Below are positions 1,797 through 19,576 of a stretch of DNA of 46,653 nt, piece by piece; position 1 is the first letter of the stretch; every line of letters starts with the position of its first letter. A program made the translations under genes and the position numbers. Source of the stretch: Photobacterium sanguinicancri (GTDB taxonomy: Bacteria; Pseudomonadota; Gammaproteobacteria; Enterobacterales; Vibrionaceae); the NCBI RefSeq assembly GCF_002265265.1, contig NZ_NOIF01000016.1, forward strand, positions 1 to 46,653, in the 5' to 3' direction. The notes beneath the pieces are model-generated. The model saw only the letters and a list, made by a program, of their open reading frames with translations. It ran no database searches and was not told where the DNA came from.

Positions 1797-2501
1797 ATGG
1801 CAAAACTTACTAAACGTATGCGCGTAATCCGCGAAAAAGTTGATATCGCTCGTGAGTACGACATCAACGAAGCTGTTGCTCTTCTTAAAGAACTAGCTAC
1901 TGCGAAATTTACTGAAAGTGTTGACGTTGCTGTTAACCTTGGTATCGATGCACGTAAATCAGACCAAAACGTACGTGGCGCAACTGTGCTACCACACGGT
2001 ACTGGTCGTGATATCCGTGTTGCTGTATTCACACAAGGTGCAAACGCTGAAGCTGCGAAAGAAGCTGGCGCTGACCTAGTGGGTATGGAAGAACTTGCTG
2101 ATCAAGTTAAGAAAGGCGTAATGGACTTTGACGTTGTTATCGCATCTCCAGATGCAATGCGCGTTGTTGGTCAATTAGGTACTATCCTTGGTCCACGCGG
2201 TCTAATGCCAAACCCTAAAGTTGGTACTGTGACTCCTAACGTTGCTCAAGCAGTTAAAAATGCTAAAGCTGGTCAGGTTCGTTACCGTAACGACAAAAAC
2301 GGCATCATCCACACTACTATCGGTAAAGTGGACTTTGATGCTGCGCAACTTAAAGAGAACCTAGAAGCTCTTATCGTTGCACTGAAGAAAGCTAAGCCTT
2401 CTTCAGCTAAAGGTACTTTCGTTAAGAAAGTAAGCATCTCTACCACTATGGGTGCAGGTGTAGCGCTAGACCAGAATACTCTGGACACTAACGCACAATA
2501 A
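1797..2501 (+). CDS. rplA: 50S ribosomal protein L1
   Basis: L1 forms the mobile L1 stalk at the ribosomal E site and, in E. coli, represses its own operon. The protein has 234 residues, as expected. The conserved block [19 protein letters not shown] (about 140-158) and the C-terminal SISTTMGAG motif are diagnostic. It starts 4 bp after the rplK stop, and the ribosome-binding site (GAGGGTTAAGACA) overlaps the end of rplK, which suggests translational coupling. The rplJ promoter lies immediately downstream. Confidence 0.98.
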
Positions 2502-2502
2502 T

Positions 2503-2538
2503 TTGCAGAAACGCCAAATTGATGTATAATTTGGCGTT
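2503..2538 (+). promoter_or_regulatory. rplJL promoter embedded in a palindrome
   Basis: TTGCAG (2503-2508), a 16-bp spacer and a perfect TATAAT (2525-2530) form a strong-looking promoter just after the rplA stop. An exact 11-bp inverted repeat, AACGCCAAATT (2510-2520) with AATTTGGCGTT (2528-2538) around a 7-nt loop, covers the spacer and the -10. TAT of the -10 is in the loop and AAT begins the second arm. The geometry is the same as at the rplK promoter (1260-1297). Confidence 0.75.
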
Positions 2539-2628
2539 CACAAATTCATGGCTGAGGCTGATTATTTTATAATTAGCCTTCGTCAAAGACCGTAGGCGTT
2601 CTTTTTAAGAACTTAATATTACCTACGT

Positions 2629-2746
2629 AGACGGTGCCAGAACATGATTGATGTATATCTATCTTGGATCTGCGCCGTAAAGACTCTCCTGTCATACTGA
2701 CAGTGAGTGGTGTAATGACTGGGGAAACCCAGCAAAAATCCAGGAG
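2629..2746 (+). ncRNA. L10 leader (autogenous L10-L12 binding site)
   Basis: This 5' UTR of rplJ carries hallmarks of the L10 leader, which the L10(L12)4 complex binds to repress its own translation. ACGGTGC (2631-2637) can pair with GCGCCGT (2672-2678), next to the conserved TGCGCCGTAAAGACTC block. CTCCTG (2686-2691) pairs exactly with CAGGAG (2741-2746), which contains the rplJ Shine-Dalgarno, giving a direct way to close the start site. The ACTGGGGAAACCCAG hairpin (2718-2732) is also typical. The motif is recognised by eye; a covariance-model scan would settle its limits. Confidence 0.8.
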
Positions 2747-2754
2747 CTATTCCA

Positions 2755-3249
2755 ATGGCATTAAATCTTCAAGACAAAAAAGCAATTGTTGCTGAAGTCA
2801 ACGAAGCTGCCAATGGTGCCCTGTCTGCAGTTGTTGCTGACTCTCGTGGTGTTGCAGTTGGTGCGATGACTTCTCTTCGTAAACAAGCTCGTGAAAACGG
2901 CGTTTACCTGAAAGTTGTTCGTAACACACTAGCACGCCGCGCAGTTGAAGGTACTGATTTTGAATGTCTTAAAGACGTTTTTGTTGGTCCTTCACTAATC
3001 GGTTTCTCTAATGAGCACCCAGGTGCTGCAGCGCGTCTTTTCAAAGACTTCGCTAAAGAGAATAAAGATTTCGAGTTCAAAGCAGCCGCATTCGAAGGCG
3101 CTGTTGTTGACGCAGAAGTTCTAGCGACACTACCAACTTACGACGAAGCTATTGCACGCCTAATGATGTGCATGAAAGAAGCTTCAGCTGGCAAGCTGGT
3201 ACGTACTATCGCAGCTGTACGCGATCAGAAAGAAGAAGCAGCGGCTTAA
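2755..3249 (+). CDS. rplJ: 50S ribosomal protein L10
   Basis: L10 is the base of the ribosomal stalk and carries L7/L12 dimers on its C-terminal helix. The 164 residues match E. coli (165). The N-terminal rRNA-binding domain includes [20 protein letters not shown] and [10 protein letters not shown]; the C-terminal helix that binds L12 ends in [12 protein letters not shown]. The start follows CAGGAG at 8 nt. It lies in an operon with rplL after a 60-bp gap and is preceded by the L10 leader, so autogenous translational control is expected. Confidence 0.98.
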
Positions 3250-3309
3250 TTGCCTCTGTTTTATCTGAACGCTATATTAAATTAATTGTTGATTTCAAAG
3301 AGAATTGTT

Positions 3310-3675
3310 ATGTCTATCACTAACGAGCAAATCCTAGACGCAGTTGCAGAAATGTCTGTAATGCAAGTTGTTGAGCTTATCGAAGCTATGGAAGAAAAAT
3401 TCGGTGTTACTGCTGCAGCTGCAGTAGTAGCAGGCGGCGCAGCAGCAGAAGCTGTTGAAGAGCAAACTGAATTTGACGTTATCCTAACAGCTGCTGGTGC
3501 TCAAAAAGTACAAGTAATCAAAGCTGTACGTGGCGCAACTGGTCTTGGCCTTAAAGAAGCGAAAGCTGTAGTTGACGGCGCTCCTGCTGCTGTTAAAGAA
3601 GGCGTAGATAAAGCTGAAGCTGAAGCTCTTAAAGCTCAGCTAGAAGAAGCTGGTGCTTCTGTTGAAATCAAATAA
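3310..3675 (+). CDS. rplL: 50S ribosomal protein L7/L12
   Basis: L7/L12 is the multicopy acidic stalk protein that recruits translation factors. I place the start at the ATG at 3310 ([16 protein letters not shown]), giving 121 residues, the family length; an upstream TTG at 3286 would add eight unconserved residues. The N-terminal dimerisation helix is followed by an alanine-rich hinge (about 37-53) and the conserved factor-binding domain, with [20 protein letters not shown]. The AAAGAG at 3297-3302 is the ribosome-binding site. An attenuator downstream reduces read-through into rpoB. Confidence 0.98.
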
Positions 3676-3706
3676 TTATTTGATTTCTTAGCCTTTTTAG
3701 GCTAAT

Positions 3707-3736
3707 GGCTGGTGGCTAAATGTCACCGGCCTTTTT
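3707..3736 (+). terminator. rplL-rpoB attenuator
   Basis: GGCTGGTG (3707-3714) pairs with CACCGGCC (3724-3731) and is followed by TTTTTGCG. This closely matches the partial terminator between rplL and rpoB in E. coli, which lowers RNA polymerase subunit synthesis relative to ribosomal proteins. An extra TTAGCC/GGCTAA hairpin precedes it at 3688-3705. The remaining leader to rpoB (3737-3896) contains another small stem, CTGTCC/GGACAG (3846-3864). Confidence 0.85.
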
Positions 3737-3896: not shown

Positions 3897-6800
3897 ATGG
3901 TTTACTCTTATACCGAGAAAAAGCGTATCCGTAAGGATTTTGGTAAGCGTCCGCAAGTGTTGGACATACCATACTTGCTGTCGATCCAGCTTGAGTCTTT
4001 TAAAAAATTCATCGAGCAGGATCCTGAAGGGCATTACGGTCTAGAAGCTGCCTTTCGTTCTGTTTTTCCAATTCAGAGCTACAACGGCAATTCCGAGCTG
4101 CAATACGTTAGCTATCGTCTCGGTGAGCCGGTCTTCGATGTTAAAGAATGTCAGATTCGTGGCGTAACATATTCAGCTCCACTACGCGTGAAGCTACGTC
4201 TTGTTATGTACGATAAAGACGCGCCTGCTGGCACCGTAAAAGACATCAAAGAACAAGAAGTTTACATGGGCGAAATTCCGCTCATGACAGATAACGGTAC
4301 ATTCGTTATTAACGGTACCGAGAGGGTTATCGTATCCCAGCTGCACCGTAGCCCGGGTGTCTTCTTCGACAGCGATAAGGGTAAAACCCACTCCTCAGGT
4401 AAAGTGCTATATAACGCACGCGTAATCCCATACCGTGGTTCATGGTTGGATTTCGAGTTTGATCCTAAGGATAACGTATTCGTACGTATCGACCGTCGTC
4501 GTAAGCTTCCAGCTTCTATCATTCTTCGTGCTCTAGGTAAAACTACTGAAGAAATCCTTGACCTATTCTTCGATAAAGTAAACTTCGAAGTTCAAGGCAC
4601 TGCTTTAGTAATGGAACTAGTACCTGATCGTCTACGTGGCGAAACTGCAAGCTTCGATATCGAAGCGAACGGTAAGGTGTACGTTGAAACTGGTCGTCGT
4701 ATTACTGCCCGTCATATTCGCCAATTAGGCAAAGACGGCGTAGATCATATCGAAGTACCTGTTGAATACATTGTAGGCAAAATTTCTGCTCGCGATTACG
4801 TGAACGAAGAAACTGGTGAGTTGATCGTTTCAGCTAACCAGGAATTGAGCCTAGAATCATTAGCATTGCTTTCTCAGGCAGGTCACAAGTCTATTGAGAC
4901 GTTATTTACTAACGATCTAGACTTTGGTCCATACATGTCTGAAACACTACGTGTGGATAGCACAACAGATCGTCTAAGTGCGCTAGTAGAAATCTACCGC
5001 ATGATGCGCCCTGGCGAGCCACCAACACGTGAAGCTGCTGAGCAACTGTTTGAAAGTCTGTTCTTCTCTGAAGATCGTTACGACCTATCTGCTGTAGGCC
5101 GTATGAAGTTCAACAGCTCAATGCTACGTGACGAAACAACAGGTTCAGGCACACTAGACGAGCACGACATCATTGATGTTATGCGTAAATTGATCGAGAT
5201 CCGTAATGGCCGTGGTGAAGTTGATGATATCGACCACCTTGGTAACCGTCGTATCCGTTCAGTTGGCGAAATGGCTGAAAACCAATTCCGCGTTGGTCTA
5301 GTACGTGTTGAGCGTGCAGTTAAAGAGCGTCTAAGCCTAGGCGATCTTGATGCAATTATGCCTCAAGACCTAATTAACGCTAAGCCAATTTCTGCGGCAG
5401 TAAAAGAGTTCTTTGGCTCTTCACAACTGTCTCAGTTTATGGACCAGAACAACCCACTATCAGAAGTTACTCACAAACGTCGTATCTCGGCGCTTGGTCC
5501 AGGTGGTCTGACTCGTGAACGTGCTGGCTTTGAGGTTCGAGATGTACACGCGACTCACTACGGTCGTCTATGTCCAATCGAGACCCCTGAAGGTCCAAAC
5601 ATCGGTCTAATCAACTCACTTTCAGCGTTTGCTCAATGTAACCCTTATGGTTTCCTTGAAACGCCTTACCGTAAAGTAGTTGATGGTAAAGTTACCGAAG
5701 AAATTGAATACCTGTCTGCAATCGAAGAAGGTCAATACGTTATCGCACAGGCAAATGCCGCGCTTAACGAAGACGGTTCTTTTGCTGACGAACTGATCAC
5801 TGCGCGTCAGAAAGGTGATTCAGGTCTGCACCCACGTGACCATGTTCAATACATGGACGTTGCAACCAACCAGGTTGTATCTGTGGCGGCATCCCTAATC
5901 CCGTTCCTTGAACACGATGATGCTAACCGTGCCCTTATGGGTGCGAACATGCAACGTCAGGCAGTTCCAACACTACGTGCTGATAAGCCGTTAGTTGGTA
6001 CTGGTATCGAGCGTAACGTAGCGGTTGACTCAGGTGTTACAGCTGTTGCTAAACGTGGCGGTATGGTTCAGTCAGTAGATGCTTCTCGTATCGTTGTTAA
6101 AGTTAACGAAAGCGAGCTAGTACCTGGCGAAGCTGGTATCGACATTTACAACCTGACGAAGTACACCCGTTCTAACCAGAACACATGTATTAACCAGCGT
6201 CCAACTGTACTACCTGGCGAGCCAGTAGCACGTGGTGATGTTCTTGCTGATGGTCCTTCAACAGACCTTGGTGAGCTAGCGCTTGGTCAAAACATGCGTA
6301 TCGCATTCATGCCTTGGAACGGTTACAACTTCGAGGATTCCATCTTAGTATCTGAGCGTGTTGTACAGGAAGATCGCCTGACAACTATCCACATTCAAGA
6401 ACTATCTTGTGTGGCTCGTGATACTAAACTTGGCTCAGAAGAAATCACTGCCGATATCCCTAACGTGGGTGAAGCAGCGCTATCTAAGCTGGATGAATCA
6501 GGTATCGTTTACATCGGTGCGGAAGTTAAAGGCGGCGACATTCTGGTAGGTAAAGTGACACCTAAAGGTGAAACTCAACTGACTCCAGAAGAGAAGCTAC
6601 TTCGTGCAATCTTCGGTGAGAAAGCGTCTGATGTTAAAGACTCTTCTCTACGTGTACCAAACTCAGTGTCTGGTACCATCATCGACGTTCAAGTCTTTAC
6701 TCGCGATGGCGTAGAAAAAGACAAGCGTGCGCTTGAAATCGAAGAAATGCAGCTGAAAGAAGCGAAGAAAGACATCACAGAAGAATTCCAGATCCTTGAG

Positions 6801-17646: not shown

Positions 17647-17799
17647 GTGCGTGTTGTTTGTGGTTTGCCCAATATGTTGAATGGCAGCACTTGTTGTTGA
17701 CTTGTTAAGTTGATAGTTCTGAATTTAAATTGAAAAAGCAGCTTAATATGCTAGTTATCGGTTGTGATGTAACCCAAATCACTTATTTAATTTTGGTGC

Positions 17800-17828
17800 T
17801 TGTTTGTCATCGCTTAGACGTTTATAAC
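17800..17828 (+). promoter_or_regulatory. Promoter of the brnQ leader
   Basis: TTGTTT (17800-17805), 17-bp spacer and TATAAC (17823-17828) predict a start near 17835, giving a leader of about 340 nt before brnQ. The bases between the yjaG terminator and this promoter (17647-17799) are AT-rich with no gene. Confidence 0.6.
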
Positions 17829-17903
17829 ATTAGTTATCGAACGAAAGGATAAATAATTTCTTTTCGTGATTATGGATAGTCCCTGTTTAGGGTAGGAGTT
17901 ACT

Positions 17904-17996
17904 GTGAATACAATCGTACGCACACATTGTCAGAATATCGCACTGGTTGCGATGCCTGCGCTACTCCTCCTCTCTTTGAACCTGATTCGGAGCTGA
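17904..17996 (+). CDS. Putative leucine-rich leader peptide of brnQ
   Basis: A 30-codon frame starts with GTG at 17904, has TAGGAG 5 nt upstream, and stops with TGA at 17994-17996. Its C-terminal half reads PALLLLSLNLIRS, with CTA-CTC-CTC-CTC as the Leu run, plus further Leu, Ile and Val codons; 12 of 30 residues are branched-chain. A hairpin ATCGCA/TGCGAT lies inside the frame (17937-17953). Position, size, ribosome-binding site and codon content are those of an attenuator leader peptide (compare leuL and ilvL), here ahead of a branched-chain amino acid transporter. It is inferred as a sensor, not as a functional protein. Confidence 0.65.
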   Translation: MNTIVRTHCQNIALVAMPALLLLSLNLIRS

Positions 17997-18174
17997 CAGG
18001 CTGTACGCAATTTCTGTTAGCTTGAGTAAAGTTAGCAGGAATAATATCCATAATATCCCTCCTTACTAACTTTCCTCCAAGCTGATTTCATCTACAACAC
18101 TATACCAATGCAAACACAGCCATTTCGGTCACTTTTTTGATCAGGGCTTTGGTAATGAAACGCTGAGGATAACT
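17997..18174 (+). promoter_or_regulatory. Candidate brnQ attenuator / SD-sequestering leader
   Basis: Two mutually exclusive hairpins follow the leader frame. CTGTTAGC (18014-18021) can pair with GTTAGCAG (18031-18038), and AAAGTTAG (18028-18035) pairs exactly with CTAACTTT (18066-18073). Further on, the almost continuous 3' strand 18145-18169 pairs with 5' blocks: GGCT with AGCC (18118-18121), TTGGTA with TACCAA (18103-18108), ATGAAA with TTTCAT (18086-18091), GCT with AGC (18080-18082), and GAGGA with TCCTC (18073-18077). GAGGA (18165-18169) is the brnQ Shine-Dalgarno. No GC-rich hairpin with a U-run is seen, so control of translation is more likely than termination. Confidence 0.5.
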
Positions 18175-19491
18175 ATGTTAAGTACACGCAATATTGCCGC
18201 TTTAGGCTTTATGACTTTCGCCATGTATTTGGGCGCAGGTAATCTAATTTTCCCTCCATTTTTAGGCTATCAAGCCGGTGACCACTTTCTGAGTGGTATG
18301 GTGGGATTCCTGCTAACAGGCGTTGGCTTACCAGCACTGGCTTTGGTGATGGTCGCTATCGTTAATGGTTCCGATAACTTAACCGCAGCGTTACCACGCC
18401 GTGTAGCGACTAGCTTTTGGGTAATGGTCTTTATTGTTATTGGGCCTGCTTTTATTATTCCTCGTGCCATAACTGTTGCTTACCAATTTACCTTTTCGCC
18501 ATTTGTCGGTGATACCGCGCTTCCCTTCTTTTCAGCAGCCTTTTGTTTAGCGGCGATCTTATTTTCCTTATACCCAGGTAAGCTGGTGGATTCTTTAGGT
18601 AAGTGGTTAACGCCAGTATTGATTGTGATGCTAACAACGTTAGGTGTCTTCGCGATTGCATTCCCTGGTGGTGATGTGATGACGACGGCAGAGGTTTACC
18701 AACAGAACGCGTTAGCAGAAGGCCTAACCCAAGGTTACATGACCATGGATGCGCTGGGCTCTATTGGCTTTGGTTGGGTAATCTTCCGAGCGATTCAAGG
18801 GATGGGTGTAACAGAACCTAAAGCGATTGCGAAATACACTTTCTACGCAGCTGCGATGTATGCTGTTGCCATGGCGCTGGTTTACATTGCATTGGCTTAT
18901 ATTGGTAGCACGAGTGCTGATTTAGGCACTAGCTTCTCTAATGGCGGTGAAATTTTAACGGCGTTCACCACCTTGCACTTCGGTGTGTATGGTACTTTGT
19001 TATTGGGCTCTGTCATGGTGTTGGCGTGTTTAACGACAGCAATTGGCGTGACGACTGCGGGCAGTGAATTTTATAGCCGTACCTTTACTCCGGTGTCGTA
19101 CAGAGCGAGTGTATGGGCGACCATGATTGCATCTGGTTTGGTTGCTAACGTCGGTTTGGATCAGTTACTGGCCATTACTTTGCCTGTGGTTGTTGCTCTA
19201 CACCCGATTGCAATTGTGTTGCTTTTTATTGCCCCAGTGCGTAAGCGTTTAACCCAAGGTGCAGTGATGGCAACAGTTATTACCACAACGGCATTTGGCT
19301 GTGTTGATGCTTTGCATGTCCTTGGTAAGATGCCAGCAGGCTTAAATGAGATGTTTGAGCACTCGTTGCCACTTTATGATTTCTACGCAAGCTGGATTAT
19401 ACCTGCGATTGTAATGCTGGTGATGAGCTTGGTATATTCAACCTCGAAAGTAAAAGCGCGTTCTACAGTGGTAGCATCAGCTGCGTCGTAA
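18175..19491 (+). CDS. brnQ: Branched-chain amino acid carrier BrnQ (LIV-II)
   Basis: BrnQ is a cation-coupled symporter for leucine, isoleucine and valine in the inner membrane (LIVCS family). The 438-residue protein is hydrophobic throughout, with about 12 membrane segments. The N-terminus, MTFAMYLGAGNLIFPPFLG, is the family signature, and the GFGWVIFRAIQGMG region (about 197-210) is also conserved. The start follows GAGGATAACT. It is transcribed alone: there is a long leader with a leucine-rich peptide upstream and a terminator downstream. It is inserted between yjaG and hupA relative to E. coli. Confidence 0.95.
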   Translation: MLSTRNIAALGFMTFAMYLGAGNLIFPPFLGYQAGDHFLSGMVGFLLTGVGLPALALVMVAIVNGSDNLTAALPRRVATSFWVMVFIVIGPAFIIPRAITVAYQFTFSPFVGDTALPFFSAAFCLAAILFSLYPGKLVDSLGKWLTPVLIVMLTTLGVFAIAFPGGDVMTTAEVYQQNALAEGLTQGYMTMDALGSIGFGWVIFRAIQGMGVTEPKAIAKYTFYAAAMYAVAMALVYIALAYIGSTSADLGTSFSNGGEILTAFTTLHFGVYGTLLLGSVMVLACLTTAIGVTTAGSEFYSRTFTPVSYRASVWATMIASGLVANVGLDQLLAITLPVVVALHPIAIVLLFIAPVRKRLTQGAVMATVITTTAFGCVDALHVLGKMPAGLNEMFEHSLPLYDFYASWIIPAIVMLVMSLVYSTSKVKARSTVVASAAS

Positions 19492-19514: not shown

Positions 19515-19541
19515 TAAAAAAAGGGACCTTGCGGTCCCTTT
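19515..19541 (+). terminator. Intrinsic terminator of brnQ
   Basis: AAAAAAAGGGACC-TTGC-GGTCCCTTTT; the flanking A-run also makes it usable from the minus strand for the convergent CNNM-type gene. Confidence 0.85.
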
Positions 19542-19576
19542 TGAGTTTAAGCCTGAATGACGGTTATAAGCTTGGC

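Follow-up and report, generated by a model that had tools for sequence, protein, structure and literature searches.

The question raised by the region upstream of brnQ, which encodes a branched-chain amino acid importer in the 46,653-nt stretch of Photobacterium sanguinicancri DNA analysed here (the window), is whether its RNA leader measures the supply of leucine and, if so, at which step it controls the gene. An earlier note, from which the name of the gene is taken (18175–19491, on the forward strand, as are all leader features described below), had suggested that leucine is sensed through a translated leader peptide and that attenuation is translational. We consider it likely that the leader is a ribosome-mediated attenuator that senses leucine via charged tRNA-Leu, probably acting on the initiation of brnQ translation, and that sister leaders containing Val or Ile codons operate likewise. 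This interpretation is supported by the conserved reading frame and its tail, by covariation of the RNA pairings, by the lack of a terminator and by the Val and Ile paralogs, while the nature of the signal, the direction of the response and the translational output are inferred.

Regions upstream of brnQ were taken from genomes of the same genus and from named genomes, the named relatives found with BrnQ being mostly Photobacterium and the closest of them P. jeanii (88%). The named genomes supplied 47 loci with BrnQ, of which three were duplicates and four were left out for want of a leader (L070 and the distant L077–L079), as confirmed by the model search described below. The 40 loci that were kept and eight further same-genus loci make up the 48 distinct leaders that were aligned, from Photobacterium, some Vibrio and one Shewanella (Shewanella marina); other same-genus loci were omitted as copies of included genomes, judged from their sequences. 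For permutation tests the leaders were divided into 14 clades, defined as single-linkage groups at >80% identity and treated as exchangeable, ignoring deeper kinship.

A plain-DNA search of relatives matched 32 of 60 genomes, several through the brnQ coding start alone. A covariance model built on the 95-nt leader core found matches in 49 of 197 genomes of the family, 40 in Photobacterium and nine in one other genus, which is taken as Vibrio from the named relatives. The best 30 family loci and the window locus all have brnQ downstream on the same strand (31/31, 66–100% identity). In the order as a whole, five of 394 genomes matched, three of them already counted and two weak; the weak matches, which lie in two other families (25.1 and 23.8 bits), were rejected, there being no brnQ nearby in the loci retrieved, and G213 gave a second weak match (23.8 bits). 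Twelve same-genus genomes listed as unmatched, two being incomplete, carry BrnQ relatives of no more than 45% identity, and V. variabilis (L070) has a Leu-type brnQ without the leader. The BrnQ of Shewanella marina (L072), 77% identical over 346 residues, falls inside Photobacterium in the protein tree and its gene is preceded by the leader, raising the possibility of horizontal transfer of both as one unit.

The putative promoter, TTGTTT-17-TATAAC (17800–17828), was located where the earlier note had placed it, with TTGTTT at 17800–17805, TATAAC at 17823–17828 and a 17-nt spacer. A TATAAC or TATAAA box recurs at the corresponding place in 38 of the 48 leaders by our count, the ten without it being V. 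harveyi-type leaders. TTGTTT agrees with TTGACA at three of six positions, and a consensus promoter scan of the window did not include this promoter among its calls. A CACTTATTT-like stretch immediately upstream of the −35 box (17780–17830) is kept in many Photobacterium loci and partly in Vibrio loci, and is a possible regulator site. At the other end of the gene, a terminator-like hairpin (19521–19550, forward strand) lies 3′ of brnQ, ahead of a gene on the opposite strand. Elsewhere in the window, positions 3676–3732 match Rfam family RF00630 (P26 sRNA; 49.8 bits), between genes read as rplL and rpoB.

The leader peptide ORF (17904–17996) comprises 30 codons with a GTG start and a UGA stop, and is preceded by a TAGGAG Shine–Dalgarno (SD) sequence seen at 17893–17898. 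Its translation, MNTIVRTHCQNIALVAMPALLLLSLNLIRS, terminates in ALLLLSLNLIRS, and codons 20–23 form a Leu run, CUA CUC CUC CUC (CUACUCCUCCUC, 17961–17972). Frame, SD and Leu run occupy the positions given previously, and the proposed check of their conservation in an alignment of brnQ upstream regions came out in favour of the frame: all 48 leaders possess an ORF that has a start codon, a purine-rich SD upstream of it and a tail rich in Leu, translation not having been measured. Starts were picked by SD score except in L038 and L029, where they were set by hand. Every tail holds at least four Leu codons, mostly in an LLLLSLNLIRG-like sequence (LLMLSLKRI in one clade), and the N-terminal halves of the peptides differ from clade to clade. 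Codon choice in the tail is strongly biased: CTC accounts for 133 of 270 tail Leu codons (49%; all 48 leaders) and for 103 of 1375 Leu codons (7.5%) in the 35 window ORFs, where it is the rarest Leu codon. Tail Leu codons show synonymous variation in places. The run also includes UCCUC (17965–17969), which is able to bind the brnQ SD, as the earlier note had pointed out; such pairing remains possible, with a mean probability of 0.38 over the 14 clades in free leaders, compared with 0.27 for segment 4, described below.

Downstream of the Leu run the RNA contains a set of strands with more than one potential partner. A hairpin within the ORF, H0, in which 17976–17980 pairs with 17986–17990, lies directly 3′ of the Leu run. 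It is followed by segment 1 (GCUGACAG, 17992–17999), which includes the leader stop codon; segment 2 (CUGUUAGCUUG, 18014–18024), the switch strand; segment 3 (AAAGUUAGCAG, 18028–18038); and segment 4 (CUAACUUUCCUCCAAGCUGA, 18066–18085), which includes the anti-SD UCCUC at 18073–18077. Segment 2 has three potential partners, namely segments 1, 3 and 4, the last of which would be reached by the 3′ half of segment 2 and the loop behind it; the strand able to capture segment 4 is designated 2′ (UUAGCUUGAGUAAAGUUAG, 18017–18035). Since segment 3 is used both by hairpin 2:3 (18014–18038) and by helix 2′:4 (18017–18035 with 18066–18085), which have 18031–18035 in common, the two hairpins that had been described as exclusive are indeed so. 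Among the alternative partners of segment 2, segment 1 lies at the leader stop codon. The window leader folds more stably than its shuffles (−94.1 versus −79.8 kcal/mol, z −2.5, with 1 of 100 as good).

Covariation across the alignment was found, as the earlier note would require, for 2′:4, 2:3 and H0. Helix 2′:4 is paired in 86.9% of 755 cells, slid controls reaching at most 53.4%, and seven of its 16 pairs show two-sided changes. The 2′:4 columns were picked after viewing duplex predictions, which favours paired cells; the same freedom was given to true and swapped partners in the clade-swap test, which compares duplex energies when partners are exchanged among the 14 clades in 20,000 permutations. 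In this test the true 2′:4 partners give −19.3 kcal/mol and the swapped ones −15.8 kcal/mol, and none of the 20,000 swaps was as good. Hairpin 2:3 is paired in 97.7% of cells, with two-sided changes in three pairs (one cell each), and 205 of 20,000 swaps were as good. The 1:2 pairing is nearly invariant (98.1% of cells over 11 pairs) and gave no clear sign of coevolution in the swap test (3613 of 20,000 as good). H0 is paired in 98.3% of cells, and in 20 cells both partners have changed, a number reached by 0 of 500 shuffles; counted by pairs, however, two-sided change in H0 does not exceed that of shuffles (184 of 500). Within H0, members of the P. phosphoreum-type clade have either Leu CTG together with Gln CAG or Leu TTG together with Gln CAA, and in the angustum type CTA is paired with the stop TAG. 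RNAalifold, given the 48-leader alignment alone, proposed 1:2, H0 as a five-pair hairpin and some 3:4 pairs, the last of which were dropped as a candidate ON helix because they show no two-sided change. A short-pattern search for segment 2 was uninformative, matching 120 of 121 genomes. By comparison of the aligned leaders, the ORF, its codon bias, the H0, 2′:4 and 2:3 pairings and the match between codon run and BrnQ subfamily described below are all demonstrated at the level of sequence.

Two further elements were observed upstream of the ORF. A second CUGUC(AGC) copy, segment 0, lies beside the leader SD, 34 nt upstream of the leader start (for example in L035, L054 and L071), and can pair with segment 1 or 3 (0:3 swap test, 43 of 20,000 as good); it is weak in the window, in the angustum type and in Shewanella marina. 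In several clades (L035, L037, L020, L059 and L071) the putative transcription start is closely followed by a hairpin with a U tract behind it, resembling a terminator; no such U tract after a hairpin near the transcription start was found in the window.

In the free window leader, the anti-SD at 18073–18077 is predicted to pair with the brnQ SD, GAGGA (18165–18169), with a probability of 0.90, leaving the SD 0.04 open. The earlier note had described a long helix in blocks that buries this SD, and the minimum-free-energy structure reproduces it in the window, with blocks running from 18073 to 18121 and returning to 18169, and the SD covered. The long block helix does not hold in general, however, since it needs extra sequence between segment 4 and the SD that is present in the window species, in its sister L004 and, in shorter form, in P. 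jeanii (L033); elsewhere the leaders form only a short hairpin at this place or lack one altogether. When the interval from segment 4 to the start codon is folded locally, the SD is hidden with a probability of at least 0.9 in 17 of 48 leaders, 0.60–0.78 in six and at most 0.58 in 25, the last being the phosphoreum, angustum and harveyi types except one. Hiding is therefore strong in fewer than most of the leaders, a recount that slightly lowers our confidence in the translational reading. Longer folds that start at the Leu tail give a mean SD openness of 0.17 over clades. Coevolution of the anti-SD:SD pairing was not detectable (3032 of 20,000 clade swaps as good). In the window species the stretch between segment 4 and the SD includes a CA-rich portion (18090–18125), which we take to be reminiscent of GcvB small-RNA targets.

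A terminator was sought in all 48 Leu-type leaders between the leader stop and the brnQ start, and no terminator-like hairpin was found in any of them. The same test detects the terminator in the leuA leader of the same genome (L080), whose ORF encodes MTNRFFILLSLLLIVNNSRG and which carries an intrinsic terminator, so that the absence of a U-tract terminator asserted previously is upheld by a test with a positive control. With a terminator in the leuA leader and none before brnQ, the cell has both kinds of Leu leader.

The best reading of these features is ribosome-mediated attenuation in which each importer senses one amino acid, with signal, direction and output inferred. When leucine is sufficient, the leader ribosome would reach the stop codon and cover segment 1, allowing hairpin 2:3 to form and leaving segment 4 free, so that its pyrimidine stretch would hide the brnQ SD and expression would be off. 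When leucine is short, the ribosome would stall on the rare CUC or CUA codons, perhaps aided by H0 at the mRNA entry; segment 1 would be left exposed, and the Leu run, which can also bind the SD, would be masked. With hairpin 2:3 disfavoured under these conditions, segment 2′ would capture segment 4, releasing the SD so that BrnQ could be made.

Modelling bears on the direction of this switch in part. When the window leader is refolded downstream of a ribosome, the predicted anti-SD:SD probability is 0.69 with the ribosome at the stop and 0.11–0.18 with the A site on codons 20–22; with a stall at codon 23, it is predicted to return to 0.90. Predicted openness of the SD in the window never exceeds 0.25, being 0.24–0.25 for codons 20–22 and 0.17 at the stop. 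Equilibrium modelling over the 14 clades gives a mean SD openness of 0.25 when stalled and 0.23 at the stop, stalling making the SD more accessible in eight clades and less accessible in six, and only the harveyi type differs clearly (0.61 stalled, 0.20 at the stop). Direction is thus left unsettled by equilibrium modelling for most clades, and the proposal that starvation turns brnQ on rests on the modelled cases and on physiological sense.

Leaders of a similar kind precede other brnQ genes. When applied to the brnQ paralogs, the covariance model scored weakly (16.1 bits, E 0.002) ahead of the second brnQ in the same genome, a gene preceded by a leader ORF encoding MPMLAISSINVCSNALLNASHTVVSVVVVVSH, and another BrnQ type has an upstream ORF with an Ile run (for example IIIAIILVIIR). 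Among the best 30 loci of each type from the family search, the only ones considered (65–100% identity), a Val run stands directly ahead of the leader stop in 30/30 loci of the one type and an Ile run in 30/30 of the other. P. sanguinicancri carries all three types, the Leu type on the window contig (C16) and the others in tandem on contig C113 (Val type, 2153–3451, L131; Ile type, 3940–5235, L164). GTC makes up 118 of 147 tail Val codons (26 of the 30 Val loci), as against 168 of 1013 in the window ORFs; the Ile runs consist mostly of ATT, which is not rare. In both types the leader stop is followed by GCUGAC or GCUGGC (1), GUCAGC (2) and a hairpin partner (3), with a GCUGAC-like strand (4) farther on in many leaders, less clearly so in several Ile ones. 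RNAalifold recovers hairpin 2:3 for Val and Ile leaders alike and, for the latter, an H0-like hairpin within the ORF around the stop. This layout is similar to that of the Leu type, the only one for which coevolution data are available. Of the leaders tested for a terminator, 4 of 26 of the Val type and 4 of 20 of the Ile type gave weak hits.

In a tree of 52 BrnQ proteins the Leu, Val and Ile types form separate groups, with the exception of row L164, an artefact that arose because this locus has both tandem genes and the Val gene was taken, and without which Val and Ile are distinct groups; V. variabilis L070 lies inside the Leu group although leaderless. Leader type thus tracks BrnQ subfamily in these sequences. 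The occurrence of Val and Ile runs before brnQ paralogs in a similar layout argues strongly that the codon run is the sensor, and raises our confidence in the sensing reading; once the recount is also weighed, the overall shifts are slight. That three BrnQ importers share one switch module with an exchanged codon run, each being made when its own amino acid is short, is a more tentative proposal, which we rate at slightly less than an even chance. If true, the codon run would predict the preferred substrate of each importer, and leucine uptake would respond to the signal that also governs leuA, through translation rather than termination. A fourth BrnQ type (about 40%; L118–L127, L129 and L130) has no such leader; a conserved hydrophobic ORF, VVFxxxxLxIVFFFxIML-like, was seen by eye upstream of it and might be a mixed leader.

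The same leaders and the same sensing could be coupled to Rho-dependent termination, by way of a C-rich, G-poor linker downstream of 2:3 that is hidden or exposed according to the state of translation. Between segment 3 and the SD the ratio of C to G ranges from 1.3 to 2.6 across the 14 clades, and 14 other upstream regions in the window all stay at or below 1.2, but these were taken as 100-nt windows, for which the value of brnQ itself is 1.4. A Rho-dependent output would also fit the missing intrinsic terminator in the Leu type and the weak hiding of the SD in 25 of 48 leaders. The pyrimidine richness is, however, partly that of the anti-SD strand, the linker measures 49–65 nt in 12 of the 14 clades, and it is exactly this strand that is captured by the coevolving 2′:4 helix, so that we regard termination by Rho as unlikely without excluding it. 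The Leu-type leader probably acts on translation, a step that is itself inferred.

Two alternatives dispense with the leader as a sensor of charged tRNA. The strongly conserved RNA segments, and the extra segment 0 in many clades, could mark a target for a protein, a metabolite or a small RNA, the ORF being incidental. Given that no Rfam family corresponds to the leader and that the codon run differs between paralogs whose leaders have a similar RNA layout, we find this improbable. Still harder to sustain is the idea that the ORF encodes a small hydrophobic protein with a function of its own: the hydrophobic C-terminus and its conservation in 48/48 leaders are compatible with it, but the N-terminal half is not conserved, whether the conserved residue is Leu, Val or Ile depends on the downstream paralog, and codon choice and compensating changes point to selection on the RNA. 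Attenuation by a leader ribosome remains our preferred explanation.

Amino-acid attenuation is commonly taught as transcription termination in biosynthetic operons, and the gammaproteobacterial leu and ilv attenuators (leuL, ilvL) exert transcription attenuation by means of a leader peptide. The brnQ leaders share with these systems, including leuA of the same genome, a run of cognate codons in the leader peptide and mutually exclusive helices. They differ in that the Leu-type leader lacks a terminator, the switched strand being an anti-SD, and in that they stand before importer genes, each paralog having its own amino acid. A search with Rfam covariance models returned no family matching the leader. 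A 2004 survey reportedly covered attenuators of proteobacteria; in the literature within the scope of our search, which left out most subscription journals, we found no description of a Vibrionaceae brnQ leader attenuator.

Nearest in layout is the actinobacterial LEU element of leuA, which, according to the part of the source available to us, likewise has an upstream ORF with a Leu run and in which the Leu run can form a base stem that contains the target SD (PMC1262725); in the brnQ leader, pairing of the Leu run with the SD is predicted as possible. On the same partial evidence, the LEU element belongs to another phylum and gene and has a central pseudoknot, and its authors cite Leu codon mutations without regulatory effect and favour a protein (PMC1262725). 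The brnQ leader has a separate anti-SD strand that coevolves with segment 2′. Nearest in mechanism are erm-type attenuators such as ermC, in which, from the sections accessible to us, a stalled leader ribosome exposes a hidden SD, as is inferred for brnQ, the signal being an antibiotic (PMC10219788), whereas that of the brnQ leader is presumably uncharged tRNA. The ilvB-II uORF of Corynebacterium is also conserved and enriched in branched-chain residues but, in the text at hand, is described as transcription attenuation of a biosynthetic operon (PMC10272879), and the accessible portion of a Shewanella regulon paper names attenuators for biosynthetic operons (PMC3223726). Set beside these systems, the leaders before brnQ are best read as a new form of attenuation by a leader ribosome, which for the Leu type probably operates on translation, and in which a sensor module is placed on three importer paralogs with its codon run exchanged, alongside a classical leuA attenuator in one genome. 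This arrangement amounts to a ready-made swap experiment on the way codon runs determine specificity; it also gives a lead on which substrates the BrnQ paralogs prefer, and supplies a covariance model that can be used in annotation.
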